DNA of 20,057 nt from a virus: the IMG/VR virus record IMGVR_UViG_3300028394_000382, positions 1 through 20,057 of that record, one strand, 5' to 3'. Of this stretch, positions 1,306 to 15,291 are shown in pieces. The notes under the pieces were generated by a model. That model searched no databases. It worked only from the letters and a program-made list of their open reading frames with translations, and was not told the DNA's origin. Numbering within the stretch: position 1 is the stretch's first letter; each line of letters opens with the position of its first letter. Position numbers and translations under genes: made by a program.

Positions 1306-1506
1306 CTGCTGTTTAGCCATCTGACGCGCCTCAAAGCACATCTGTGCGTAGCGCTGCGGTATATCAGGGTGCCAGCCACCCATAATGACATCGCAACTAA
1401 CTCTAGGGCGTTCTTCTCTGCGGGTTAGTTCTGTAAAAGCAATTAGGTAAGTGCAGACAATAATGCCAAACAAACATACCAAAATAGTTATTCCATCCGT
1501 TCTCAT
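1297..1506 (-). CDS. Small single-pass membrane protein, unknown function
   Basis: 69 residues, last gene of the minus-strand early operon. A hydrophobic segment near the N-terminus (about 6-24, GITILVCLFGIIVCTYLIAF) is followed by a polar, Arg-rich tail containing several Cys. The start is supported by AGGAGA about 8 bases upstream and by an ATGA overlap with the sigma-4-like gene (1503-1506). No family is recognised. A type II or signal-anchor membrane protein is likely, with roles such as superinfection exclusion or host takeover possible but unsupported. Its 3' end overlaps that of the endolysin gene. Confidence 0.65.
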   Translation of the reverse strand: MRTDGITILVCLFGIIVCTYLIAFTELTRREERPRVSCDVIMGGWHPDIPQRYAQMCFEARQMAKQQSR

Positions 1507-1685
1507 ATCACGTCTCCTAGTGAGTATTTCTTTAACAAGTGGTACTTAAACTTCCGCAACGCCATACTTTCAATTTCGCTGACTCGACTACGGGAAAGCC
1601 CTAACTCATCTGCAACTTCTTGCTGGCTCATGTGGCCTTCGTTGTTCTGTGGCACAGGCGCATATTCTTCGTAATCGTCGTCCAT
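1503..1685 (-). CDS. Stand-alone sigma-70 region-4-like HTH protein
   Basis: 60 residues. An acidic N-terminus (MDDDYEEY) precedes a helix-turn-helix with the region-4 signature: MSQQEVADELGLSRSRVSEIE (19-39) and then SMALRKFKYHL. This parallels the conserved sigma-70 block in which a GLSRxRVxQIE-type recognition helix is followed by ALRKLR. No other sigma domains are present. It could bind -35-like DNA, or occupy the RNA polymerase beta flap and redirect host polymerase from early to later promoters. Those roles are inferred from the domain. It is joined to the upstream gene by TAATG (1683-1687) and to the next by ATGA. Confidence 0.8.
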   Translation of the reverse strand: MDDDYEEYAPVPQNNEGHMSQQEVADELGLSRSRVSEIESMALRKFKYHLLKKYSLGDVI

Positions 1686-3331: not shown

Positions 3332-4668
3332 GTCAGCTCCTCCATAGCTATCTCCGATAAAGCCTTTTTATCTTTCAAGGCACCCAAAATGCGCTCCTCA
3401 ATCGTTTTCGTTGTGATCAGGATGTAAACCCATACATCATGCTTTTGACCGCTTCGGTGCAGTCTACCGATGGTTTGCTCGTAATACTCTAGCGACCACG
3501 GTAGAGACACAAACACCATCTTGCATCCGCCATGCTGTAGGTTTAGCCCATGCCCTGCTGATAGCGGGTGAATTAACAACAGTTCTATTTCGCCTGCGTT
3601 CCAACGGGCAATCGACTGTGGGTCATTGATTGTCTGTGCGCTAGGATACCTACGCTTGAGTTCTGCCAGCTCCTCAACGTAGTTGTAAACAATAATCGTA
3701 TTCGCCCGTTGGTTTTCACTTAACAGCTCATCTAACATATCAAACTTATGGGTGCTAAACCAGATAGGCGTCTGGGTGACGTTCATGCGCCCAGGTGTAT
3801 TGGACGCCGTTGTTTCGGTACTGTAAACAAACCCTGACGACATCTGTTGTAACTTCTGTGTGACTACGGCTGCGCTAACCGCCGTAATTTTTTCTTTACC
3901 GAATTGCACAACAAAGTCCTTCTTCATCTTCTCATAGTGGCTACGGTCAGCCATATCGCAGCGCATCTCTACGATGTGTAGCGGTGGCAACTGATCAGCG
4001 TACTCGCCAGCATCTAACACAAAGGTCGCAGGTTTAATCGTCTGCATCACTTCAGGCAGCGCACCCTTGCGTGGCGCCCATTCGCCAAAGTCTTTGTTCA
4101 TTAGAATAAAATACTTTTGCATAAACGCCCCTTTAGACCGCCCTAACAACTGTTGGTCGATGATCTTACATTGCCCAAACACATCCTCAAGGCCATTGCT
4201 AGTAAACGATCCTGTCAAACCCCAACGTATTTTGATGGGGTCAATCACTTTGTTAAGGGCTTTGAAGCGTGCGCCTGATGGATTTTTTAACCTAGTCAGC
4301 TCATCAAACACAATGCCGTCGAAGTCCATGTCATCGGGCAACGATTGTAAGTTATCGTAGTTAGTTACAACAACCAACGCCTTAGACTCAAACGCTTCCT
4401 TGCGTTGCTTGGGTGTGCCAACAGCTACGGCTAACTTCATAAAAGGCGCCCATTTCGGCTGCTCAACAGGCCACACATCGGTGCAGACACGTTTGGGTGC
4501 AATGACTAGCCATCTAGTAACAACGCCGTTGTACAAACAATCGTACATGGCGCGTAGCGTAATCGCCGTTTTACCTGCGCCAACAGGCGCAAGAATCATA
4601 GCACGGTCATGCTCGTACAAAAAATCAGCGGCTATCTCTTGGTAGTCGCGTAACCTTAACCCATTCAT
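3328..4668 (-). CDS. SNF2/SF2-type DNA helicase or translocase
   Basis: 446 residues from the ATG at 4668, chosen over an upstream in-frame codon because AAAGGAG sits 9-10 bases before it. Two RecA-like lobes are visible. The first has LRDYQ (Q motif, 6-10), Walker A APVGAGKT (27-34), motif Ia VIAPKRV (about 55-61), a Walker B reading VFDELT (about 120-125) where SNF2 proteins usually have DEAH or DExx, and motif III GLTGS (150-154). The second has SAGHGLNLQ and motif VI QTIGRLHRSGQ (398-408), the SNF2-family arginine-finger motif. Proteins of this type sit beside VRR-NUC, DUF2800, PolA and primase genes in many phages, where they are thought to aid replication or recombination. Confidence 0.92.
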   Translation of the reverse strand: MNGLRLRDYQEIAADFLYEHDRAMILAPVGAGKTAITLRAMYDCLYNGVVTRWLVIAPKRVCTDVWPVEQPKWAPFMKLAVAVGTPKQRKEAFESKALVVVTNYDNLQSLPDDMDFDGIVFDELTRLKNPSGARFKALNKVIDPIKIRWGLTGSFTSNGLEDVFGQCKIIDQQLLGRSKGAFMQKYFILMNKDFGEWAPRKGALPEVMQTIKPATFVLDAGEYADQLPPLHIVEMRCDMADRSHYEKMKKDFVVQFGKEKITAVSAAVVTQKLQQMSSGFVYSTETTASNTPGRMNVTQTPIWFSTHKFDMLDELLSENQRANTIIVYNYVEELAELKRRYPSAQTINDPQSIARWNAGEIELLLIHPLSAGHGLNLQHGGCKMVFVSLPWSLEYYEQTIGRLHRSGQKHDVWVYILITTKTIEERILGALKDKKALSEIAMEELT

Positions 4669-4918
4669 CAATTTGCTCCTTTGTCCATAAACACGCATAC
4701 TTTTGGGATAGCCCCGTTACTTCTTCCTGAAAAAATTTCTGTAAGGCAGACACTTTACCGCCCTTTGTCTTTAATTCTACAAACCATGTATCACCGTTGG
4801 GTAGACACGCTATCTGATCTGACACGCCACGTTGGTTGATTGACCTAAACTTATAAGTCTTTCCGCCTATTGACATTACCGCCCATTTAAAATAAGATTC
4901 AATCTCTTTTTCATTCAT
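4625..4918 (-). CDS. VRR-NUC domain nuclease
   Basis: 97 residues, the typical size of a stand-alone phage VRR-NUC (PD-(D/E)XK fold). Visible motifs are an N-terminal Glu-rich helix (NEKEIESYF), then RGVSDQIACLPNG with Asp34, then WFVELKTKGGKVSALQ with Glu48-x-Lys50 as the catalytic E-x-K and Gln60 in the following helix. Members cleave branched or structured DNA and resemble Holliday-junction nucleases. It is first in the minus-strand operon and overlaps the helicase gene by 44 bases, suggesting joint action. There is no clear Shine-Dalgarno before the ATG. It may be read from a short leader out of the divergent promoter region. Confidence 0.9.
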   Translation of the reverse strand: MNEKEIESYFKWAVMSIGGKTYKFRSINQRGVSDQIACLPNGDTWFVELKTKGGKVSALQKFFQEEVTGLSQKYACLWTKEQIDEWVKVTRLPRDSR

Positions 4919-4994
4919 GTAAAAAAGTTTAACACATCTTTTAAATTGTGTGTTATATTAGAATCTCAAATCAACTAAAGTAAAGGAAAATAAA
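4919..4994. promoter_or_regulatory. Divergent promoter region between the two early operons
   Basis: A 76-base AT-rich gap between the minus-strand operon (starting at 4918) and the plus-strand operon (starting at 4995). For the minus strand, TTTACT (reverse of 4979-4984) and TAATAT (reverse of 4955-4960) stand 18 bases apart, a passable sigma-70 pair. For the plus strand, TATATT at 4954-4959 could be a -10 element, but no convincing -35 is seen. It also holds AAAGGAAA, the ribosome site of the plus-strand gene. The promoter role is mainly inferred from the divergent layout. Confidence 0.4.
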
Positions 4995-6122
4995 ATGGCT
5001 CTACATTCAAATATCGTCGGTGGCTCAAGTGCTAAAAGGGTTATGGGTTGCCCAGGCTCTGTTGCTTTATGTGCTAAGATGCCACCAAAACCAAGCAGCG
5101 TGTACGCTGACTCAGGTACATTACTCCACAATGCAATATCACAAGTGTTAGACCAAGGCGTAACGCCTGAGTCTTTAATTGGTATGAAGTACCAAGACCA
5201 AGTGCTAACGCAAGAACTTATTGACAACAAACTCCATGTCGCCCTTGATTTACTTGGCGAGATAGATCCTAAGCTAGAGATGGAATACGCTGTTGAAACA
5301 GAAGTCGGCTTTGGTGACTTCTTACCTGATGTGTTTGGCTCATGTGACTTGCTAGGCCGTATAGGTAATCGGGCTATTGTATTAGATTGGAAGTTTGGCG
5401 ATGGCGTTGCCGTGGGGGTAGAAGAAAACGAACAGCTCTTATTTTACGCAGCAGCAGCTATGCGTACCGAATCAGTCAAATGGGTGTTTGATGGCGCAAC
5501 AGAAATTGAGTGCGTTATCGTGCAGCCACCAAGCGTCAAGCGTTGGGTAACAACCGTTGAGCGTGTCAAAATTTTTGAAAATAATTTAGTTGCATCTGTT
5601 AAAGAATCACAGAAGAAGAACGCTGGATTAAGCGCTGGTGAGCATTGTCGTTGGTGCGCTGCAAAACCAATCTGCCCGAAGATGACAGGCGCAGTCGAGC
5701 GTGCGCTACAGGAGCAGTTGGTGAGCCTCAACGCTGATATGATAGGTGGCTATCTCAAGAATTGTGATCTGTTAGAACAATGGATTACTGATCTGCGAGC
5801 GTTAGCGCACCAGATGTTAGAAGCAGACAAGCCTGTGCCTGGTTGGAAGTTAGTCAATAAGCGTGCTACACGCCAATGGGCAAACGATGATCAAGCAGCA
5901 GACGTGTTAGCAAAAGTAATCCCCGAAGCTGAGTTGTATGTGACTAAACTCATTACACCAGCAGTTGCGGAAAAGGTACTCAAGAAGTTAGGTGATAAAC
6001 TGCCTGACGACTTAGTAATAGCAGTAAGTAGTGGTAGCACGTTGGCACGGGAAGATGATCCCCGTCCAGCCGTAGTACAAATCGGGAAGCAACTTGTTGC
6101 AGCCCTTTCTAAAATCCAATAG
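4995..6122 (+). CDS. DUF2800 protein, RecB/Cas4-like Fe-S nuclease
   Basis: 375 residues. Signature blocks in order: GGSSAKRVMGCPGSVAL with Cys19, GTLLHNA with His45, FGSCDLL with Asp118, VLDWKFGDG with Asp131-x-Lys133, NEQLLFYA with Gln147 and Tyr151, and GEHCRWCAAKPICPKM with Cys218, Cys221 and Cys227. The His, Asp, Asp-x-Lys and QxxxY set is the PD-(D/E)XK exonuclease pattern. One N-terminal Cys plus three C-terminal Cys is the 4Fe-4S arrangement of AddB and Cas4 nucleases. It probably processes DNA ends or recombination intermediates during phage replication. AAAGGAAA precedes the ATG. It is first in the plus-strand replication operon. Confidence 0.9.
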   Translation: MALHSNIVGGSSAKRVMGCPGSVALCAKMPPKPSSVYADSGTLLHNAISQVLDQGVTPESLIGMKYQDQVLTQELIDNKLHVALDLLGEIDPKLEMEYAVETEVGFGDFLPDVFGSCDLLGRIGNRAIVLDWKFGDGVAVGVEENEQLLFYAAAAMRTESVKWVFDGATEIECVIVQPPSVKRWVTTVERVKIFENNLVASVKESQKKNAGLSAGEHCRWCAAKPICPKMTGAVERALQEQLVSLNADMIGGYLKNCDLLEQWITDLRALAHQMLEADKPVPGWKLVNKRATRQWANDDQAADVLAKVIPEAELYVTKLITPAVAEKVLKKLGDKLPDDLVIAVSSGSTLAREDDPRPAVVQIGKQLVAALSKIQ

Positions 6123-6133
6123 GAACTAAACTA

Positions 6134-6820
6134 ATGTCAAACATAACCACGTTTTCAGCAGCAAATCTACCCTCAGTCACTTCATTATCGACAGCACTCC
6201 GAGCTTTAGAAACCGATGTTGGCGCAGCAGGTGTTGTCATCCTCAAGATGGACAAGACAGGTCATTGGGTGTTCGGTGCAGATCAGACCGAAGTTGAAGA
6301 AGATTCAACATGGGCAGTCAATCCGTTCTCATTCGTGCATGGTTTCATAGCATGGGGTGACGGTGAGGTGCTTGGCGAAAAGATGGTATCAGTATCTCAG
6401 CCATTACCTGAGTTAGAAGCAGCGCCTCCAATGGCTCGTAAAGGTTGGGAGACTCAGGTCGGTATGTCTATGAAGTGTTTAAGTGGCGAAGATAAGGGCA
6501 TGGAAGTACGCTACACCACAACTTCGGTTGGCGGTAAGCGTTCTGTACAAGCCCTTGCAGTTGCCATCGCTACACAAGTAGACACAGACCCGAAATTGCC
6601 TGTACCGATTGTAACTCTTGAGAAAGAGCATTACAGTCACAAGTCGTATGGTCGCATTTACACACCAATTTTTAAAATTACAAGTTGGATGAGTATGACC
6701 GATGAGCCAAGCAAAGCACCAAAAGATAGTATTACTGACGATGCGCCCGAAGTATTATGGCCTGCACCTGAAGTAGAATCAGCAGCACCTGTAGCGACAG
6801 CTCGTAGACGTCGTAGCTAA
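6134..6820 (+). CDS. Hypothetical replication-operon protein, possible ssDNA-binding protein
   Basis: 228 residues. ATAGGAAC precedes the start, 11 bases after DUF2800. The N-terminal half has aromatic, beta-rich segments (GHWVFGADQTEVEEDSTWAV, SFVHGFIAWGDGEVLGEKMV). The middle is less conserved-looking. The C-terminus is acidic (SITDDAPEVLWPAPEVE) and ends in ARRRRS. In related phage modules the gene between DUF2800 and PolA is often a DUF2815 ssDNA-binding protein. This one does not show the DUF2815 opening that I know, so a functional analogue is only an inference. The acidic C-terminal stretch would suit an SSB-like recruiter, but the basic last residues are unusual for one. Confidence 0.7.
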   Translation: MSNITTFSAANLPSVTSLSTALRALETDVGAAGVVILKMDKTGHWVFGADQTEVEEDSTWAVNPFSFVHGFIAWGDGEVLGEKMVSVSQPLPELEAAPPMARKGWETQVGMSMKCLSGEDKGMEVRYTTTSVGGKRSVQALAVAIATQVDTDPKLPVPIVTLEKEHYSHKSYGRIYTPIFKITSWMSMTDEPSKAPKDSITDDAPEVLWPAPEVESAAPVATARRRRS

Positions 6821-6825
6821 AGAAA

Positions 6826-6894
6826 TGGGGCTAGTCTGTAAGTATTCAGTCTAGTACACACAAGTCGAACAACTAAGAAAACCGACTAGCCCCA
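6826..6894. repeat. 11-bp inverted repeat flanking the polymerase leader
   Basis: TGGGGCTAGTC at 6826-6836 is the exact reverse complement of GACTAGCCCCA at 6884-6894, with 47 bases between. It fills the gap between the unknown replication protein and polA, and its right arm ends 6 bases before the polymerase ATG. In RNA it would form a long-loop stem placed where a ribosome site would normally be. No T-run follows, so it does not look like a simple terminator. Confidence 0.7.
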
Positions 6895-6900
6895 CCTATT

Positions 6901-8871
6901 ATGACAATTCTATATATTGATTTTGAGACACGCTCACGCTGTGATCTACCCAGCCGTGGCGTTTACAATTACGCAAGGGATGCCAGCACGTCTGTATTGT
7001 GTCTATCCTATGCGTTTGATGATGAGGAAGTGCAGTCTTGGCTACCTGATCAAGAATTTCCTTGGCAGATCGTTGACCATATCGTATCGGGCGGTCAAAT
7101 ACGGGCGCATAACGCTGCCTTCGAGCGCTTGATTATGTGGTACGTCCTCTGCCCAGACAAAGGAATCCCAGAACCGACTACGGAACAGTTCTATTGTACA
7201 GCTACGCAGGCTCGTGCTAACTGTGCGCCAGGCTCGCTTGATGACGTGGGCAGATTCGCAAGCGTGAATATGCGTAAGGATCACCGTGGCAATCAACTAA
7301 TTCGTTTACTATCTATCCCCAAGGCCGATGGTACGTTCAACAATGACGTCACGCTTATGGCTGAGATGGTTGCCTATTGCGAGCAGGATGTTCGAGCAAT
7401 GCGTGCGATTAGTCAAGCTATGCGCCAACTGTCAGATGATGAGCTGTTAGACTATCATGTAAATGAGAAGATTAATGATCGTGGCGTGCTATTGGATAAA
7501 CCCTTAGCCGAGTCAGCAATCAAGTATGCGAGTGCGGAGCTGATAGAAATAGAAAATTTAGTAGCAGAATTGACAGATGGTGAAATATTAAGCGTGAGAA
7601 GTCCACGGATGCGCGAGTGGGTGCTTGCAAGAGTTGGCGATCAGGCCAAGAAGTTAATGGAAAACTACAAAGATGGTGACAAAAAATACTCAATCGACAA
7701 GACAGTTCGAGCTAATCTACTTGTGTGTGCTGAAGAAAATCCCGATGAAGTACCGCCGCAAGTTGCTGATGTTATCCAATGCGCGGACGACCTATGGGCG
7801 TCTAGTGTCGCAAAATTTAAAAGACTAAAGGAGTTAGCAGATGAAGAAGATCAAAGAGTCCGTGGAGCATTTGTCTTTGCAGGCGGAGCAGCCACCGGTA
7901 GAGCCAGCAGTTACGGAGCGCAAGTCCACAACTTCACACGCAAGTGTGCTAAGGATCCCGACGCTGTACGATCCGCAATGGTTAGAGGCCACGCAATTGT
8001 CCCTCATTTTGGAAGGCGGATCACGGATGTTCTCAAGTCCATGCTCAGACCTGCCCTCATACCCCAACGGGGAAAATCATTAGTCGTTGCCGACTGGGCA
8101 GCCGTTGAAGCACGGGTTAATCCGTGGCTATCCAACTGTCCAGCAGGTATTAAGAAATTAGACCTTTTCCGTACTGGTGAGGATGTTTACAAGGTTAACG
8201 CTAGTGCGACGTTCCATGTACCTGTTGATCAGATCACAAGTGAGCAACGGCAGATCGGCAAGGTGCAAGAGTTAGCGTGTGGCTTTGCAGGTGGCGTGGG
8301 AGCTTTCGCTGCAATGGGTCGAGCGTACGGCATTTTGTTACCTGAACCTGAAGCCAAACGGATGGTCAATGCGTGGCGTTTAGCAAATCCGTGGTCGGTG
8401 CCGTACTGGCAAGACCTTGAAAATGCTTACACGCGAGCGATGCGTAACAAAGGACATGAGTTTAGAGCAGGGCGAGTAACCTATTTATTTGATGGGCAAC
8501 ACTTGTGGTATGCACTTCCAAGTGGGCGTGTGTTATGCTATCCTTTCGCCCGATTAGATCAAGACGGAGTCAGTTATGCCAAAGCATCGTGGAAACCCGC
8601 AGCAGACGCAAAAGAGTGGCCAAGAGCAAGATTATGGAAAGGACTCGCCTGTGAAAACATTACACAAGCAGTCGCCAATGACTTACTGCGACACGCTTTG
8701 CGAGGCTTGGATGATGTGGTACTTCACGTCCATGATGAAATTGTGGTCGAGTCAGCAACACCCGAAATAGCAGTACAAATAATCAAAGACGTTATGTGTA
8801 CCCCACCCGCATGGGCAGAGGGGTTACCCTTAGACGTAGAGGCAAGCATTATGACAAGGTATGGAAAGTAA
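6901..8871 (+). CDS. polA: Family A DNA polymerase with 3'-5' exonuclease domain
   Basis: 656 residues, typical of phage PolA-type replicases. The N-terminal exonuclease domain shows Exo I LYIDFET (Asp7, Glu9), Exo II RAHNAAFE (68-75) and Exo III YCEQDV (Asp163). The polymerase domain shows motif A VVADWAAVEARV (395-406, with Asp398, Glu403, Arg405), motif B around RQIGKVQELACGFAGGVGAF (450-469, with Arg450 and Lys454), and motif C LHVHDEIVVE (Asp612, Glu613). All key catalytic positions appear intact. The start is fixed because DFET begins only seven residues in, yet the bases before the ATG (CCCCACCTATT) hold no Shine-Dalgarno. It is probably the phage replicase, working with the primase-helicase downstream. 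Confidence 0.95.
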   Translation: MTILYIDFETRSRCDLPSRGVYNYARDASTSVLCLSYAFDDEEVQSWLPDQEFPWQIVDHIVSGGQIRAHNAAFERLIMWYVLCPDKGIPEPTTEQFYCTATQARANCAPGSLDDVGRFASVNMRKDHRGNQLIRLLSIPKADGTFNNDVTLMAEMVAYCEQDVRAMRAISQAMRQLSDDELLDYHVNEKINDRGVLLDKPLAESAIKYASAELIEIENLVAELTDGEILSVRSPRMREWVLARVGDQAKKLMENYKDGDKKYSIDKTVRANLLVCAEENPDEVPPQVADVIQCADDLWASSVAKFKRLKELADEEDQRVRGAFVFAGGAATGRASSYGAQVHNFTRKCAKDPDAVRSAMVRGHAIVPHFGRRITDVLKSMLRPALIPQRGKSLVVADWAAVEARVNPWLSNCPAGIKKLDLFRTGEDVYKVNASATFHVPVDQITSEQRQIGKVQELACGFAGGVGAFAAMGRAYGILLPEPEAKRMVNAWRLANPWSVPYWQDLENAYTRAMRNKGHEFRAGRVTYLFDGQHLWYALPSGRVLCYPFARLDQDGVSYAKASWKPAADAKEWPRARLWKGLACENITQAVANDLLRHALRGLDDVVLHVHDEIVVESATPEIAVQIIKDVMCTPPAWAEGLPLDVEASIMTRYGK

Positions 8872-8898
8872 AAAAAACCCCTAGTTTTCGGCTAGGGG
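8870..8898 (-). terminator. Intrinsic terminator reading on the minus strand
   Basis: On the plus strand there is an eight-base A-tract (8870-8877), then CCCCTAG (8878-8884), a seven-base loop and CTAGGGG (8892-8898). Read on the minus strand this is a 7-bp GC-rich hairpin followed by eight Ts, a textbook Rho-independent terminator. It lies between two plus-strand genes, overlaps the polA stop codon, and has no minus-strand gene upstream of it. It would stop antisense transcription. On the plus strand it is a hairpin without a T-run. Confidence 0.75.
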
Positions 8899-8923
8899 CA
8901 ACTCATTCACGGAAGGAAACACA

Positions 8924-11230
8924 ATGCACAACTTTTTAGAGTTTATCACGAATTTAGCGCCAGAGGGCGAGACTGCCTTGATTGTGCGCCAAAAGCCACA
9001 GTTGAAGAATGGCGAATTACAGTTGCATGCCGATGGTGCTATTAAATGCACATGGCCTGCGTACTTGCCTAGCCAGAAGATGCGTGCTGGTGAGGCGTGG
9101 TATATCAATACGGCGTCGTTTATCATAGACCGCTTTGAGGATGGACGCGTATCAGCGTCCGCAGCCAACTGCGAGTTTGTATTGTTTATGATGTTAGATG
9201 ACATCGGTACGAAGTCGAAAACACCGCCCCTTGCACCGACATGGATTCTTGAGACTAGTCCTGCTAATTTTCAGTACGGATATGCTTTCTCGGAGCAACC
9301 GACTAAGGGTGAGTTCACGGCAGCAGTCAAAGCCATTGCAGCCGCAAATTACACCGATGCAGGCGCTACTAATGCAGTTCGCAATGTGCGTCTGCCAGGC
9401 TCGATTAACCTAAAGCCTGGGCGTGATAACTTCGAAGCCAAGCTAGTTGAGTTCCACCCTGAGCGTGACTACACGCTAGAGGAAATCTGCACGGCGCTAG
9501 GTGTAACACCCGCCCCTGCCGATACGAATCATTACGCACCGATTAGACTCGCCGACAATGGTGGCGATGATGTGTTATCATGGCTGAATGATCAAGGCAT
9601 GGTATTGTCGAAGATCAACGGCGAAGGGTGGCTTTCAGTCACTTGCCCTAACAACGCCGAGCATACCGATGGCAACCCCGAAGGTCGGTACAAACCCCTA
9701 GATCGTTCTTATTGTTGTCTACACTCGCATTGTGTCGATTTCGGCAGTCAAACATTTCTTGATTGGGTTGCTGCCAATGGTGGCCCTAAAGTTACCCACG
9801 GCCTGCGTGACCAATTGATCGCCGAGGCGATGACCGTAGCGTTGGCTAAGATTACCCCGTCCGATATGTTTACCGATGACGCTGACGCTAAGATTGCCGA
9901 AGTTGAGCGTAAAGAGTTAGGGCGTGTTGAGAAGTCCAAGTGGTATGAGCGTTTTGCCTATGTGCAGGATGACGAATCCTATTTTGATATGCAAGACAGA
10001 CGCGAAGTGTCAAGACAGACTTTTAACGCGCTATTCCGTCATATCAAATGTATGTCAATCCATGCACCGAACACCAGAGTTGAAGCATCTATTTGTTTTG
10101 ACCAAAACAGACAATCATCAGGTGCCAAGGCATTAGTTGGCATCACTTACGCAGCTGGTGAATCCGTGATTGTAACCCGTGATGGTGATCTATATGGTAA
10201 CAGATGGCGTGATGCTCGGCCTAACGTGTCTGATGCAGTTGTTGGCGATATTAGTATGTGGATGGAACATTGTCAAAAGCTCGTTCCTGAACCTGAAGAA
10301 CTTGAGCATGTTTTGAACATCATGGCGTTCAAAGTGCAACATCCTGAGACTAAGATTAACCACGCTGTCTTGCATGGTGGCGATCAAGGTAGCGGCAAAG
10401 ACACCATGTGGGCGCCGTTTATTTGGGCAGTTTGTGGTAGTCATTCGAGGAATCGTGGCATCATGGATAACAACTCCATTAACAGTCAATGGGGTTATCA
10501 ATTAGAGTCTGAAATTTTATTAATTAATGAGTTAAAAGAACCCGACGCTGCAACTCGCAGACAGTTAGCCAATCAACTCAAGCCAATCATTGCTGCACCG
10601 CCTGAGATGCTACCGATCAACCGCAAGGGCTTGCATCCTTACATGATGGCTAACAGACTATTTGTCCTGGCGTTCTCAAATGATCCTGTACCTATCTCAC
10701 TTGATTCACAAGATAGGCGTTGGTTTTGCGTGTGGTCAGCAGCTGCTCGCATGGATCCAACCGAAGCCAAGCAGATGTGGGATTGGTATCGACATGGTGG
10801 TTTCAAGTCGATTGCAGCGTGGTTACACGCCCGTGATATTAGTCAATTCAATCCATCAGCACCGCCTGCCATGACTGAGTTCAAAGCCAACTTGGTTGAG
10901 CATGGCATGAGCATAGCCGAGTCGTTCTTAGTTGAAATGTTACGCGCTCGTAAAGGTGAGTTTGCCAAGGGTGTAATTGGTTCGCCATTACATTCGTTGT
11001 GTGATCGTCTAGCTGGATCAGCGCCTAGTAATGTCAAAGTACCGCAAGCTGCTTTGTTACATGCCCTGAAAGAAGCAGGTTGGGTAGATTGTGGGCGCAT
11101 CAAGTCTAGAGATTTTGACACGAAAAAGCACATCTTTGCTGCACCTGAGTTAGCGTATATCTTGAGTAAGTCAGAGTTAAGGCGAGCGCTTGAGGATAGT
11201 CCGCTTGTGTCTCAAGATGTGCCGTTTTGA
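8924..11230 (+). CDS. Primase-helicase: PrimPol-like domain, zinc finger and SF3-type helicase
   Basis: 768 residues, after a GGAAGGAAA ribosome site. The N-terminal third looks like a RepB/PrimPol-type primase: FVLFMMLDDIG with Asp92 and Asp93 as likely metal ligands, ETSPANFQYGYAF (110-122) and RNVRLPGSINLK (153-164). A zinc-finger pattern follows (Cys241, His247, Cys264, Cys265, His267, Cys270). The C-terminal half is a DUF5906/D5-like SF3 helicase: Walker A GGDQGSGKDT (485-494), Walker B ILLINE (531-536), sensor VLAFSND (581-587) and arginine finger DRRW (597-600). It should prime and unwind DNA for the PolA upstream. It is last in the plus-strand replication operon, and iteron-like repeats begin three bases after its stop. 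Confidence 0.9.
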   Translation: MHNFLEFITNLAPEGETALIVRQKPQLKNGELQLHADGAIKCTWPAYLPSQKMRAGEAWYINTASFIIDRFEDGRVSASAANCEFVLFMMLDDIGTKSKTPPLAPTWILETSPANFQYGYAFSEQPTKGEFTAAVKAIAAANYTDAGATNAVRNVRLPGSINLKPGRDNFEAKLVEFHPERDYTLEEICTALGVTPAPADTNHYAPIRLADNGGDDVLSWLNDQGMVLSKINGEGWLSVTCPNNAEHTDGNPEGRYKPLDRSYCCLHSHCVDFGSQTFLDWVAANGGPKVTHGLRDQLIAEAMTVALAKITPSDMFTDDADAKIAEVERKELGRVEKSKWYERFAYVQDDESYFDMQDRREVSRQTFNALFRHIKCMSIHAPNTRVEASICFDQNRQSSGAKALVGITYAAGESVIVTRDGDLYGNRWRDARPNVSDAVVGDISMWMEHCQKLVPEPEELEHVLNIMAFKVQHPETKINHAVLHGGDQGSGKDTMWAPFIWAVCGSHSRNRGIMDNNSINSQWGYQLESEILLINELKEPDAATRRQLANQLKPIIAAPPEMLPINRKGLHPYMMANRLFVLAFSNDPVPISLDSQDRRWFCVWSAAARMDPTEAKQMWDWYRHGGFKSIAAWLHARDISQFNPSAPPAMTEFKANLVEHGMSIAESFLVEMLRARKGEFAKGVIGSPLHSLCDRLAGSAPSNVKVPQAALLHALKEAGWVDCGRIKSRDFDTKKHIFAAPELAYILSKSELRRALEDSPLVSQDVPF

Positions 11231-11232
11231 TA

Positions 11233-11335
11233 GAGTCGAAAATAGCGTGGTGGAACGGAATCGAAAAAAGCGTCCCCCACGTTAGTTTCAAACCGAATCG
11301 AAAATAGCGTCTCCAGACCGAATCGAAAAAAGCGT
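11233..11335. repeat. Four iteron-like 16-bp direct repeats, duplicated as two pairs
   Basis: The unit GARTCGAAAAWAGCGT occurs at 11233-11248, 11258-11273, 11295-11310 and 11320-11335. Starts are 25, 37 and 25 bases apart, so the set is an imperfect 62-base duplication of a two-copy module. Copies 1 and 3 read AATAGCGT. Copies 2 and 4 read AAAAGCGTCCCC. It starts directly after the primase-helicase stop and is followed by AT-rich DNA. Iterons next to a replication initiator are common at origins, and a repressor or initiator binding cluster is an equal option. Confidence 0.75.
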
Positions 11336-11557
11336 CCCCACAAAACCATCAAAATTCTTATAAAAAATATGCTGCATAAATAATCAGTAAAAAATTGCTG
11401 CAAAAAAAGTCAAAAATTTGTAAGTCCTAACTAACATAAATCCAGCTGTAAAAAATCCTATACCAGCTGGATGCCTAAAAATAGTGGATGCCATTTAAAA
11501 CCTATTTAAGCCACTTGTAACAAGTTTTATTACATGGGTAATGGGTAGCTATAGGAT
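11336..11557. other. AT-rich non-coding stretch with hairpin and short repeats
   Basis: No credible gene is seen. The stretch is strongly A/T-rich with A-runs. It contains a perfect 9-bp inverted repeat ATCCAGCTG (11440-11448) and CAGCTGGAT (11464-11472) with a 15-base loop, and a repeated TGGATGCC at 11468-11475 and 11485-11492. Together with the iteron-like repeats on its left it could be a melting region of an origin. It also separates the convergent plus-strand replication operon and minus-strand amidoligase operon. Confidence 0.5.
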
Positions 11558-11583
11558 AAAAAAAACCCCCTATTTCTAGGGGG
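11558..11583 (-). terminator. Rho-independent terminator of the amidoligase operon
   Basis: On the minus strand, CCCCCTA pairs with TAGGGGG around a GAAA tetraloop (plus-strand arms 11566-11572 and 11577-11583), followed by eight Ts (plus-strand A-tract 11558-11565). The stem is seven perfect base pairs. It lies 28 bases past the stop of the last small minus-strand gene, the right place to end that transcript. Confidence 0.88.
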
Positions 11584-11610
11584 CTGAATTGATGCTGGAA
11601 TAGTGTTAGT

Positions 11611-11673
11611 TTACAGATCGAATAAGGCAACCATCAAAGCCACTATACACAATACAGCTATTGTAATAATCAT
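11611..11673 (-). CDS. 20-aa single-TM miniprotein
   Basis: The ATG at 11673-11671 directly follows the stop of the previous small gene, with AAAGGA nine bases upstream. The 20-residue product (MIITIAVLCIVALMVALFDL) is hydrophobic almost to its end, long enough for one membrane helix, with a single Asp near the C-terminus. The stop TAA is at 11613-11611, ahead of the operon terminator. No family is recognised. A good ribosome site, exact gene-to-gene junction and promoter-to-terminator continuity argue that it is real, but such a short frame could arise by chance. Confidence 0.5.
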   Translation of the reverse strand: MIITIAVLCIVALMVALFDL

Positions 11674-11772
11674 TTAATACCATCCTTTCGCATAAATCCA
11701 AATTGATGCTAAAACTAAACCCATTAATACGCTGAATATTGCACCTAGTAAATAATCAATTAATGTCTTCAT
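11674..11772 (-). CDS. 32-aa single-TM miniprotein
   Basis: The ATG overlaps the stop of the amidotransferase-like gene (ATGA, 11769-11772) and has AAGGTG about 6 bases upstream. The 32-residue product has a short polar start (MKTLIDY), one hydrophobic helix (about 8-28, LLGAIFSVLMGLVLASIWIY) and a small basic end (AKGWY). This suggests one membrane pass with the C-terminus inside by the positive-inside rule. No family is recognised. It is followed without a gap by a second, 20-residue membrane miniprotein. Co-expression with the amidoligase pair suggests a membrane-linked role for the cassette. Confidence 0.62.
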   Translation of the reverse strand: MKTLIDYLLGAIFSVLMGLVLASIWIYAKGWY

Positions 11773-12806
11773 GCGATCACCTTAATAGAGTTAAAAGAGT
11801 TTTGAGTATTTACGCCATGTCTATCGTATGTCTCTGAATTACCAGATACACGATCTAACCATGGGAACGCTTGTCTGGCGTGATCGTGGTTACGCATGCA
11901 CTTAATAAACCAGTCTTCATTAATGGATTGATCTAAGACCATGTAGGCGATATCAGTAAAACAAGTAAAACTAAACTCATTAATAAAGTCTGTGATCACA
12001 GCTGGATTGATATCTGCCGCACTCAAAAATCCATAGTCTTCAAAGTCCATCAATAGTTGTTCTATTTCGTCTTCGTAATAACTGATATCACCATCATCCA
12101 TCCATGCTGTGCTGAAGTTGTTGCCACGAATTCCATAATTATTATCTAGGGCATATCTGTGAATTACAGGCTTCTCTAATGCTTGTTTAGCGATCTTCTT
12201 TTTATCAGTGATAGGCTTCTTAGATGCTGAAGTTGACGCAGACCATGCATATGTATTGGATAACCACATACCAGACCAATACACGCCACTATCTTTATTG
12301 ATTGTTGCCATGCGACCAGCACCATCCATCAAGACAAATTTATTAGACTTACCAATATGATCTGCCACGATCAGCTTGAAAGCTGGATGGAATGCAAAGT
12401 CTGGATTTTTACATAACATGGGTTTTAGATAATCATTGATGTAGTGCCATGTATCAGACTTGTTTGGATTGGCTTTATTACCCGTTGACAAAATGCCATT
12501 GTGCATAAGCCACATATCCAGACCATGTTCTTTTTTATTAAGGACTGGATATGGATGACAGTTGTCAAGATCAATGTTGCCATGTGTTCTCATGCGAAGA
12601 TGCCATGCACAATTTTTACCCTTGATATTTTGATTGTAAAAATTTACTAGGTCTTGATCAGTTTTAGGCAACAATTTTTTGACAACAATATTACCCTTGT
12701 CCACATACATCACGCCTACACCATCACTATTAAAACTATAGAAGTCTTCTAACCAGTCTGTATGTAAAACTGGAGTTTTGTTTGTTTGAGTTATTAATAA
12801 GCACAT
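11769..12806 (-). CDS. Class II glutamine-amidotransferase-like (Ntn hydrolase) protein
   Basis: 345 residues. The second residue is Cys, as needed for the N-terminal nucleophile after Met removal. Family landmarks follow: DGVGVMY (28-34), WHLRMRTHGN (68-77, like the HxRxATHG block), NCHPYPV (82-88) and LMHNGIL (100-106). These match the glutaminase domain that frees ammonia from glutamine. The C-terminal half (about 200-345) is acidic and not recognised, with no synthetase or sugar-isomerase domain attached. It directly follows an amidoligase gene (25-base gap, AAGGAAAA ribosome site), so ammonia or amide transfer to the ligase's product is a reasonable inference. The DNA is A/T-richer than the replication genes. 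Confidence 0.85.
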   Translation of the reverse strand: MCLLITQTNKTPVLHTDWLEDFYSFNSDGVGVMYVDKGNIVVKKLLPKTDQDLVNFYNQNIKGKNCAWHLRMRTHGNIDLDNCHPYPVLNKKEHGLDMWLMHNGILSTGNKANPNKSDTWHYINDYLKPMLCKNPDFAFHPAFKLIVADHIGKSNKFVLMDGAGRMATINKDSGVYWSGMWLSNTYAWSASTSASKKPITDKKKIAKQALEKPVIHRYALDNNYGIRGNNFSTAWMDDGDISYYEDEIEQLLMDFEDYGFLSAADINPAVITDFINEFSFTCFTDIAYMVLDQSINEDWFIKCMRNHDHARQAFPWLDRVSGNSETYDRHGVNTQNSFNSIKVIA

Positions 12807-12831
12807 ATTTTATGTTTTCCTTGTTTATTGA

Positions 12832-14157
12832 TTAAGCTACTTTTCTTAGATGGTCTGGACATACTGTAGGCATCCCACAAACCATATCAAAACCCTTGTT
12901 TTTAAGATAAACCCTTAAAAATCGAGTATCAGACTTGTTTTGTGGCATACAAATAAACTGAATAAACTGTTCAGTTGTGAGTTGATCTATACCAGCATCC
13001 TTACAAAAATGCCATGTGGCGTAAGTAAACTCTAAACATGCCATGATCGTCTCATACTTTAAAGAACCCTTAAATAATCTGAATTCAATGGTTTTATCGT
13101 TATTAAAATTCAATGCTTCATAACGATCACTATTCAAACCCCTAAGTTGACTATGTTTATCTTTTTTATGTCTAACCACATCTTTTAACCATGAAGTATC
13201 AGACTTTTTATCTTTAATTTTTCCATAACTAGCATCTCTTCTTGCTACTGCTTTGATCAGCTGGTAGTTGTTTGTATCATTGATAAAAAACACCATCTTC
13301 GCACCATGTAGGGTAGACATATTCGACTTGCAGATATGCACATGAAGTCCACATGTTTCAGTATTGTGGGATGCCATTCCCTTGAAAGTATGCTTAAAAA
13401 ACTGTAGCTGATCTTTATGCACATCCAGACCTGTATACCCTGTCACCATCTCAAACCCATCATCCAGAGAACCATCCTCTTCGCATAAGGCATAAGTCTG
13501 CCCACGATAGCTACCAATAGCATCCAGCAAGTGTCCTGCCCTACTATCCTTATCATAATCTTCATGCTTGCATTCCATCTCTAATTCCAGACCTAAGAGA
13601 ACCCTAGGGCTTCGTTGATCAAAGCTGGATGGGATATGCCCTAGTCTTCGTTTTGATGAATGATAGCTACCAATATGCTCATGTTCCCTATCGTCATCTT
13701 CGTCATCCGTATTATCTTGATAGTTATTATTACGATCAGACCAATAATAGTTATGTCGACAATTATCACAGACTGAATAATCATCATTGACATTGTGTGC
13801 TTCATTGTCGCTGTCCAAATGCCCACAATCGTTACATTCAAAGTAATACCCATCAAAATGTTCACTTAAAGTGTCATTCCAATTCTTAGTATTTCTGAGC
13901 CATCTATTGTCATTTAAATAACCACAAACTTCTAATGCGGCTTCGTAACTACCATCTTTTTTAAGACTGTTAAACATCTTCCCAAAGTCGACCAAAACTG
14001 ATCGTCTAGCTATTCGACCTACTAGATCAAGACCACGATAAATAGCTTCGTTGTTTGATTGATAGTATTGGCGTGGGTTTAAATTACATCTAATCTTTTC
14101 TCTTATTGCACTAAGAGAATGATTATGATTTTTTCTTAAATACAGTATGTTGTGCAT
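12832..14157 (-). CDS. Amidoligase (COOH-NH2 ligase family) with N-terminal Cys4 zinc knuckle
   Basis: 441 residues. The C-terminal two thirds show the amidoligase pattern related to the glutamine-synthetase fold: LLGLELEME (187-195, Glu191 and Glu193), EEDGSLDDGFEMVT (226-239), CGLHVHI (269-275, His272 and His274) and RYEALNFNNDKTIEFRLFKGSL (345-366). These are the metal- and ATP-binding positions of ligases that join a carboxylate to an amine. Ahead of it lies a zinc knuckle with Cys108-x2-Cys111 and Cys130-x2-Cys133, and an acidic linker (DDEDDDREHEH, about 151-161). Residues 1-100 are unrecognised. AGAAAGG precedes the ATG. It is first of a four-gene minus-strand operon with a glutamine-amidotransferase-like partner. 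The substrate is unknown. Confidence 0.88.
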   Translation of the reverse strand: MHNILYLRKNHNHSLSAIREKIRCNLNPRQYYQSNNEAIYRGLDLVGRIARRSVLVDFGKMFNSLKKDGSYEAALEVCGYLNDNRWLRNTKNWNDTLSEHFDGYYFECNDCGHLDSDNEAHNVNDDYSVCDNCRHNYYWSDRNNNYQDNTDDEDDDREHEHIGSYHSSKRRLGHIPSSFDQRSPRVLLGLELEMECKHEDYDKDSRAGHLLDAIGSYRGQTYALCEEDGSLDDGFEMVTGYTGLDVHKDQLQFFKHTFKGMASHNTETCGLHVHICKSNMSTLHGAKMVFFINDTNNYQLIKAVARRDASYGKIKDKKSDTSWLKDVVRHKKDKHSQLRGLNSDRYEALNFNNDKTIEFRLFKGSLKYETIMACLEFTYATWHFCKDAGIDQLTTEQFIQFICMPQNKSDTRFLRVYLKNKGFDMVCGMPTVCPDHLRKVA

Positions 14158-14258
14158 TTGTTGCCTTTCTTACTTTAGTTTAGATTAGTGAATTTTTACT
14201 GCTGTGTTACTTCTATGATTGTAACAAAAATTGTTGTGCTTGCGTGGTTTTGTTGTTT

Positions 14259-14620
14259 TGTGGATATGTTGTGGACTGAATGTGGGTTTAATGTGGGTAT
14301 AGAGAAATGGGTTTGAGAGATATATAAAACCTAGTTTGTGGGTAATGTGGATAACTATGAAGTCTATATGCTAGTAGATTGATTTTTGATGTATGGGCAT
14401 GTGTCTGGATCGCTGTATGCACGACAGCGTTACCAGCTATTCGTGCGATTTAAAACACCATGTCCACATTGTCCATTTGTCCACACTTTTCCCTTTCCCT
14501 AAAGTGTGGGTAATGTGGATAACCCTAAAACATAATGTCCACATAACCCACATAATAATTATCTAGACTATATAAATACCTACTTAAAACATTATGTCCA
14601 CACTACCCACATAACCCACA
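14259..14620. repeat. Array of DnaA-box-like 9-mers, candidate origin or operator region
   Basis: TGTGG cores start at 14259, 14270, 14281, 14292, 14337, 14346, 14505 and 14514. The reverse, CCACA, starts at 14464, 14481, 14539, 14548, 14598, 14607 and 14616. Two boxes (14346-14354 and 14514-14522) read TGTGGATAA, the exact complement of the classic DnaA box TTATCCACA. Each is joined head-to-tail to TGTGGGTAA, making a perfect 19-bp direct repeat (14337-14355 and 14505-14523). An AT-rich stretch at 14551-14593 lies between the last two clusters. No gene is present. The array lies between divergent promoters, so it may also regulate the flanking operons. Confidence 0.75.
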
Positions 14621-14704
14621 ACGGATTATGTTTGTCTGTATGTGTCTGGTTTTTGTTTGTTTGTCAAACATGAGACAAACACCATGTTAGTTAAGGCTTA
14701 CTAA

Positions 14705-14762
14705 CCATAGGGCAAAAACTTTTAGCATGGGGGGGGTAGGGCCAAGCCGAACGGCCCTATGG
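14705..14762. repeat. Mutually exclusive stems upstream of the terminase operon
   Basis: GCCCTA at 14754-14759 can pair with either of two TAGGGC copies. The long-range stem is CCATAGGGC (14705-14713) with GCCCTATGG (14754-14762), nine perfect pairs. The local hairpin is TAGGGCC (14737-14743) with GGCCCTA (14753-14759), seven perfect pairs and a nine-base loop. The two cannot form at once. The G8 run sits between the two left arms. Confidence 0.6.
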
Positions 14763-14767
14763 CGGCG

Positions 14768-14797
14768 GAGCGTTTGCTCAAACTTTTTATTTTTTTT
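14768..14797 (+). terminator. Weak terminator-like hairpin plus T-tract before terminase
   Basis: GAGC-GTTT-GCTC (14768-14779) forms a short four-pair hairpin and is followed by AAACTTTTTATTTTTTTT up to 14797. The stem is short for an intrinsic terminator, and the T-run begins four bases after it. With the competing stems just upstream it could act as an attenuator for late transcription, or be an AT-rich promoter spacer. Confidence 0.3.
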
Positions 14798-14832
14798 ACA
14801 AACTGCCAAAAAATCTATGATAAGATTCCACC

Positions 14833-15291
14833 ATGTTTGATAACTTTCATTCCTATGTGTATGAGCCACGCAAGCTAGAAGCTACCGAGGCTAGATTGCA
14901 ACGCATATACGATGCTGCCAAGTTAGGACTCAAAGGCGACACACTTGCCCTTGCTGCGGGGATGCGCCCTACCGAATACCGACAGCTTACGCAACTAGAT
15001 CCCATTGCGGAGTATGCTGAACAAAAAGGCAAAGCCGATGGCGAGATGGAGTTATCAGCGATACTGCACAAAGCCGCAGCCGATGGCGACGCTAAAGCTG
15101 CGCTAGAAATTCTCAAGCACCAGCATGGCTGGGTAGCTAAACAACAACTGTCAATAGATGTTGAGCAACGCATCTCAATTACAGCCGCACTCGAACAAGC
15201 GCAACAGCGCGTCATCGAAGGCGTGTTCAAACAAGTGGATAATACCGAAATGCTCCACGTGAAACCTCAACTCAAACAAAAGGTGGCGTAA
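14833..15291 (+). CDS. Probable terminase small subunit
   Basis: 152 residues. The N-terminal part (EATEARLQRIYDAAKLGLKGDTLALAAGMRPTEYRQL, about 16-52) reads as a helix-turn-helix of the kind small terminase subunits use to bind packaging DNA. The middle (AEQKGKADGEMELSAILHKAAADGDAKAALEILKHQHGWV) is helical and typical of TerS oligomerisation regions. The role is supported by its position two genes ahead of the large terminase. The ATG at 14833 has no Shine-Dalgarno (GATTCCACC precedes it). The stop overlaps the next gene by TAATG. Assignment is by context and general pattern, so another DNA-binding packaging factor cannot be excluded. Confidence 0.75.
   Translation: MFDNFHSYVYEPRKLEATEARLQRIYDAAKLGLKGDTLALAAGMRPTEYRQLTQLDPIAEYAEQKGKADGEMELSAILHKAAADGDAKAALEILKHQHGWVAKQQLSIDVEQRISITAALEQAQQRVIEGVFKQVDNTEMLHVKPQLKQKVA

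Follow-up and report, generated by a model that had tools for sequence, protein, structure and literature searches.

The window analysed here is a freshwater phage record of 20,057 bases (IMG/VR record IMGVR_UViG_3300028394_000382), which encodes a portal protein, terminase, DNA polymerase, primase, exonuclease, helicase and endolysin. Between its primase and small terminase genes lies a leftward group of genes that begins with two intact open reading frames (ORFs), encoding an amidoligase and a class II glutamine amidotransferase of the N-terminal nucleophile (Ntn) type. These two genes (referred to below as the cassette), which the initial annotation of this DNA regarded as a possible modification system, are the subject of this report. 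The features of the region are as follows (aa – amino acids).

end at 11230, plus strand: flanking primase, opposite in orientation to the cassette
11233..11339, no strand: repeat array of about 4 copies of GAATCGAAAA(A/T)AGCGTC with tandem-like spacing, lying between the ends of the primase gene and of the cassette
11564..11585, minus strand: intrinsic-terminator-like hairpin (9-bp stem followed by TTTTTT) ending the leftward unit
11611..11673, minus strand: predicted 20-aa hydrophobic microprotein ending in FDL (sequence MIITIAVLCIVALMVALFDL)
11674..11772, minus strand: predicted 32-aa single-span membrane protein
11769..12806, minus strand: class II (Ntn) glutamine amidotransferase, 345 aa, nucleophile Cys2; intact ORF
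12832..14157, minus strand: Amidoligase_2 protein, 441 aa; intact ORF
14158..14832, no strand: divergent intergenic region with TGTGGGTAATGTGGATAAC / TGTCCACA repeats (repeat scan)
14268-14614: repeats upstream of the cassette (repeat scan)
14346-14354 and 14514-14522, minus strand: two perfect DnaA boxes TTATCCACA, the sole perfect copies in the window
start at 14833, plus strand: flanking small terminase, opposite in orientation to the cassette

The two enzymes and their leftward unit

The amidoligase passes the Pfam threshold for Amidoligase_2 (PF12224; 26.1 bits, cut-off 22) and matches PHROG_2443 ("amidoligase enzyme"). It comprises N-terminal helices, a CxxC...CxxC region (approximately residues 108–135) that looks like a zinc ribbon, and a ligase domain resembling glutamine synthetase and GCS2 (approximately residues 184–424). 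Comparison with 34 homologues revealed that residues G189, E191, E193, G234, E236, G270, H272, R307, N350, E358 and R360 are invariant. Their order (ExE ... E ... H ... ExR), mapped by motif order without superposition, presumably corresponds to the metal- and ATP-site residues of glutamine synthetase, none of which has been lost among these proteins. A search of solved structures with the amidoligase sequence gave only HypA zinc-ribbon matches (E 0.5), none of them useful. In an AlphaFold2 (AF2) model (mean predicted local distance difference test score, pLDDT, 81.6), the ligase domain (184–424) is similar to YbdK (1tt4; Foldseek E 1.8e-5; Z 11.4, root-mean-square deviation 4.7 over 214 residues) and to glutamine synthetases (Z 10–11). 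Fold and family together suggest carboxylate-amine ligase activity.

The amidotransferase scores just above the threshold of its Pfam family (PF13230; 23.8 bits, cut-off 23). Invariant or nearly invariant positions in 34 homologues include C2, R71, T74-H75-G76, H84-P85, H102-N103-G104 and SDT (117–119), and C2 is absent from one sequence only, which is cut by a contig end. The conserved positions cover the class II features, i.e. the Cys2 nucleophile following Met, R71, the N103-G104 oxyanion site and D118 for glutamine binding, so that the active site recognized in the initial annotation is retained across the family, as are the motifs quoted there for both proteins. The AF2 model (mean pLDDT 77.7) places the Ntn domain close to the glutaminase domain of GlmS (1xff; E 5.3e-6; Z 10.3). 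Ratios of nonsynonymous to synonymous substitution rates (dN/dS) in the nearest clade are low for both the amidoligase (0.08–0.18) and the amidotransferase (0.03–0.05), which indicates that both are under purifying selection.

The cassette stands apart from its surroundings in the ways originally described: both flanking genes lie on the plus strand, the GC content of the cassette stretch is 0.35–0.39 compared with 0.44–0.52 in the replication and terminase regions next to it, and repeats are found on either side (11233-11339 and 14268-14614). The description of a separate transcription unit closed by a strong terminator could be upheld in part. A hairpin with a T-run is present at 11585-11564, but the scan detected two terminator-like sites where 1.8 are expected by chance, and the weight of this site therefore comes from its position, not from its rarity. 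Since the promoter scan showed no excess (7 predicted sites compared with 15.4 in shuffled sequence), it is the orientation and the terminator that argue for a separate unit, the leftward promoter of which probably lies within 14158-14832. An Rfam search gave no match.

The DnaA boxes lie in the stretch of TGTGG/CCACA repeats that precedes the cassette, and a gene annotated "dnaa protein helix-turn-helix" is present in the same slot of a relative (accession no. MW202483). Elsewhere in the window, a 60-aa protein (1503-1685, minus strand) scores only as sigma-70 region 4 or helix-turn-helix.

The initial annotation counted both tiny membrane proteins as parts of the system. The ATG of the 32-aa ORF overlaps the amidotransferase stop codon (ATGA), and overlapping small membrane ORFs were also found behind the amidotransferase in contigs L005, L006, L008 and L043. 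In a survey of contigs sharing the phage backbone, a short membrane ORF that overlaps the beginning of the microprotein gene was present in 3/3 cassette contigs, compared with about 4/59 others at the same loose threshold, which suggests that the 32-aa protein may be linked to the cassette. Among close relatives, every change in the gene of the 20-aa microprotein is synonymous, and two further pairs give synonymous to nonsynonymous ratios of 5:1 and 9:1. It was at first seen only behind the amidotransferase. The backbone survey (L151-L230) then revealed a 19–20-aa hydrophobic relative ending in (F/L)D(L/I) just past the primase in 62 of 79 contigs (0 in shuffled sequences), nearly all of them without the cassette. 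The 20-aa gene was consequently removed from the system; by this distribution, it is a conserved gene of the phage backbone.

Pairing, cargo status and distribution

Searches of IMG/VR with either protein yielded 104 distinct viral contigs, 8 of which end too near the gene to be judged. Both genes are present in all 96 judgeable contigs, and in 95 of these the amidotransferase directly follows the amidoligase on the same strand (the remaining contig has a 610-nt gap). The pairwise distances of the two families are strongly correlated (Mantel r 0.95; 0/2000 permutations), although much of this correlation would be expected from common descent by itself. Within this family the partnership looks obligate, as judged from these gene neighbourhoods. 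More distant amidoligases behave differently: those of Clostridioides phage AR1086-1 and a Microcoleus phage have no amidotransferase partner, and small genes stand between the two in a Christensenellales phage. The pairing is therefore a property of this amidoligase family, and not of every phage amidoligase.

In one locus of an Atopobiaceae metagenome bin (L132, 5173-7218), the two proteins are encoded by a single ORF. This fusion was not used as proof of contact, since its Met-Cys is internal and the linker is read-through-like. An internal Ntn nucleophile would not be tolerated without processing or an internal start, and this ORF is possibly a read-through or assembly effect. A Brachyspira-labelled contig (L135:6390-9812) has the amidotransferase first, followed by two amidoligase-like genes, an order not met elsewhere.

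Cassette loci are spread over at least three large-terminase families and at least three portal families. The optionality of the cassette was examined in 80 contigs sharing the primase of the window, of which 71 had a judgeable slot between primase and terminase. The cassette occupies this slot in 3 of the 71, and other genes do so in the remaining 68, including those for a sliding-clamp-like protein, DUF7227/GP88 proteins and ORFans; in the cassette-free relative MW202483, a cytosine-5 DNA methyltransferase is encoded there. Most ORFs longer than 100 aa in the surveyed slots are leftward (146/169). Since the contents differ and are mostly leftward, the slot is a variable leftward region, and the cassette is an optional, swappable cargo of the phage backbone. 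The cassette-free sister phages are natural controls for this slot.

A scan of 84,980 species revealed 21 loci, several of which are in metagenome bins. Three isolates, Polynucleobacter sp. JS-Safj-400b-B2, AM-25C3 and 31A-FELB, carry the pair (the amidotransferase approximately 50% identical) at a common chromosomal site, flanked by a tyrosine integrase and a relaxase/LPD7 region, i.e. within an integrative mobilizable element. In AM-25C3 and 31A-FELB, genes for SIR2 and HerA are located about 0.5 kb downstream of the pair (L121:9470-12429 and L122:9467-12456). They were identified by PADLOC in AM-25C3 (E 3e-85 and 1e-176, respectively), and the 31A-FELB genes belong to the same clusters. JS-Safj-400b-B2 has an uncharacterised 416-aa gene in this place. 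By association, then, the Polynucleobacter pair occupies a defence-type cargo position. The Polynucleobacter pair itself matched no PADLOC defence model, and the amidoligase of the window (its amidotransferase was not scanned) gave just a weak PDC-M03B match (E 0.0015). A host origin of the pair was considered and rejected: in a sample of the Polynucleobacter family, 1/398 genomes matched, this being the query genome, and no match was found in plasmids.

Proposed function and alternatives

The intact active sites, the constant pairing and the separate leftward unit make a modification system plausible, as originally suggested. According to the proposed mechanism, the Ntn amidotransferase would release ammonia from glutamine via Cys2, and the amidoligase, through its glutamine synthetase fold, would activate a carboxylate with ATP (as an acyl phosphate) and then form an amide with that ammonia. 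The most likely substrate would be a carboxylate of the host peptidoglycan stem peptide (the D-Glu alpha-carboxylate or diaminopimelate) or its precursor, and the altered envelope would hinder competing phages. It is likely that the pair constitutes a working two-subunit enzyme. Fold and family favour amidation, on balance, over other ligations. What the pair modifies is probably the host cell wall or some other molecule of the host; the cell wall in particular, suggested by analogy with the proposal published for phage cassettes and with MurT/GatD and by the gene neighbourhood, is a possible but somewhat doubtful target. Analogy and neighbourhood likewise point to a role in exclusion, and the swappable slot, together with the SIR2-HerA genes in Polynucleobacter, tilts the interpretation towards conflict with the host or between phages. 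Taken as a whole, i.e. a glutamine-dependent amide synthetase carried as phage cargo, with a peptidoglycan carboxylate as its foremost candidate target and the exclusion of competitors as its role, this interpretation is offered tentatively, as one that falls slightly short of being probable. The proposal that the pair acts as a stand-alone exclusion module, swappable in phages, which would keep competitors out with it, and carried as defence cargo by bacterial mobile elements, through amidation of envelope carboxylates, is improbable.

Several points limit the case for an envelope target and the chemistry proposed for it. No sequence feature points specifically to peptidoglycan. In the sequences of the two large proteins, no export signal and no membrane span is obvious, and a wall target would therefore need to be a cytoplasmic precursor. 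In favour of a wall target, the endolysin of the window is a glycan-cutting GH108 glycosidase, which peptide amidation should leave unblocked and with which a changed stem peptide is compatible; this argument, which draws on the endolysin of the window and not on those of cassette-free phages, is weak. The SIR2-HerA link is an association only, since it comes from three related isolates and one chromosomal site. The peptidoglycan action of phage cassettes stands in the literature as a proposal, for which no assay was found. Finally, the Ntn domain is as similar to EgtC (4zfj/4zfk; Z 10.7) as to GlmS, and ammonia donation is therefore not proven by the fold.

The last of these points introduces a different chemistry. 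In the ergothioneine pathway, EgtA and EgtC combine a GCS2-fold ligase with a class II Ntn hydrolase, and EgtC cleaves a gamma-glutamyl amide by hydrolysis. By analogy, the amidoligase could make a gamma-glutamyl or other amide of a small metabolite and the Ntn protein hydrolyse it, with no ammonia donated. Structurally, few proteins match the Ntn protein as well as EgtC, the ligase is most similar to YbdK, a relative of glutamate-cysteine ligase, and larger phage cassettes contain a gamma-glutamyl cyclotransferase. However, the family of the latter (PF06094) is absent from the 21 cassette-bearing IMG/VR records tested, the GlmS glutaminase is matched equally well, and no further gene of the ergothioneine pathway was noticed in the window. 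Although EgtC-type hydrolases share the fold, the adjacency of the amidotransferase to the ligase supports a role as an ammonia donor, and such strict one-to-one adjacency fits a synthase-glutaminase complex better. A gamma-glutamyl chemistry is thus distinctly improbable.

Alternatively, the pair would modify a protein of the phage or of the host, such as a factor of transcription, translation or defence. A carboxylate of this protein would be amidated (or extended with an amino acid) in the service of counter-defence or takeover. The slot has the character typical of host-takeover regions, being a variable leftward operon made up largely of ORFans, and a DNA methyltransferase occupies it in a relative; the zinc-ribbon-like region of the amidoligase could bind a protein; and the title of Iyer 2009, as cited in PMC10580990, predicts peptide modifications of proteins. 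Against this explanation, the neighbourhoods of the cassette on its different backbones share no conserved protein that could be a linked substrate; it is considered unlikely, though less so than the gamma-glutamyl chemistry. That the pair is merely an auxiliary enzyme of nitrogen or metabolite supply, diverting glutamine of the host in the course of infection and playing no part in envelope change or conflict, agrees with the annotation of the OM43 phage copies as auxiliary metabolic genes (PMC10580990). The pair is nearly absent from host genomes and from plasmids, as described above, and the Polynucleobacter copies reside in a mobile element, in two isolates beside defence genes, all of which makes this explanation very unlikely.

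Comparison with known systems

The initial annotation treated the presence of the pair in a phage as noteworthy, but such a pair is not unusual there: the association of an amidoligase with an amidotransferase in phages has already been published, and the kind of system is not new. A seven-gene "peptidoglycan modification cassette", with a proposed function in hindering superinfection, was described in RIO-1-like podoviruses and also in phiEco32, PA11, tf, LUZ24 and others (PMC5498523), and the association is likewise present in the LUZ24-like phage UFV-P2 (PMC3890496). A lean two-gene pair is known from MEP401/402 and more than 30 OM43 phage genomes (PMC10580990). Like the window, MEP401/MEP402 (OM43) and Manatee Spring podovirus ctgrD200 (accession no. 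MW202733) have an amidoligase gene followed by an adjacent amidotransferase gene, and their proteins are 30–39% identical to those of the window. They differ in their phage backbone (Zobellviridae in MEP401, where the genes are co-oriented with the replication genes that come next) and in the longer N-terminus of the amidoligase.

The phiEco32/RIO-1/LUZ24-like cassettes likewise unite Amidoligase_2 with a class II amidotransferase in a single cluster, and profile comparison showed both window proteins to be remotely akin to the UFV-P2, phiEco32 and RIO-1 enzymes. These cassettes additionally encode a COOH-NH2 ligase, an ATP-grasp protein and a gamma-glutamyl cyclotransferase, and their amidotransferase is longer and of the GATase_6 type; in the window, two enzymes were identified. 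The COOH-NH2 ligase (PF14395) was found in 0/24 records including the window, by a model that matches UFV-P2 and phiEco32 and misses the annotated RIO-1 copy. It is also missing from the same-backbone contigs L005 and L008 (36–38 kb), the window being a 20-kb fragment. The cyclotransferase family was not found in the window (one of the 21 records mentioned above), MW202733 or MEP401, with Stenotrophomonas phage StenR_269 and 9 control genomes matched as positive controls. The ATP-grasp ligase was sought with the R2K_2 model alone, without a strong positive control, the UFV-P2 enzyme falling below the Pfam cut-offs. Presence of a full phiEco32-type cassette was rejected since neither PF14395 nor PF06094 was detected, and the window cassette is therefore a lean relative of the full form, not a member of it.

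The region 4022-12180 of StenR_269 (L038) encodes two amidotransferases, one short like that of the window and one long and phiEco32-like, together with an amidoligase, a ligase resembling glutamine synthetase, an ATP-grasp-like ligase and a gamma-glutamyl cyclotransferase. This phage may connect the lean form of the cassette with the full one.

The "cell wall/superinfection" label on phage amidoligase-amidotransferase pairs dates from 2009, and the two-gene form, common in viral contigs, is the smallest version of the cassette. New here are the co-occurrence count, the cargo status, the reassignment of the 20-aa gene to the phage backbone and the defence-associated neighbourhood in cultured bacteria. 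With cassette-free sister phages and three sequenced Polynucleobacter isolates, an old question becomes testable with two genes and cultured hosts.

Amidation of wall carboxylates is performed by other enzyme types. Those of the LtsA/AsnB type amidate diaminopimelate, AsnB having a different synthetase domain fused to a class II glutaminase. In Staphylococcus aureus, MurT/GatD, like the pair proposed here, consist of a ligase and a glutamine amidotransferase, which amidate a stem-peptide carboxylate of peptidoglycan (PMC3267633), although their folds are unrelated to those of the window pair; MurT belongs to the Mur ligases and GatD to the class I amidotransferases.

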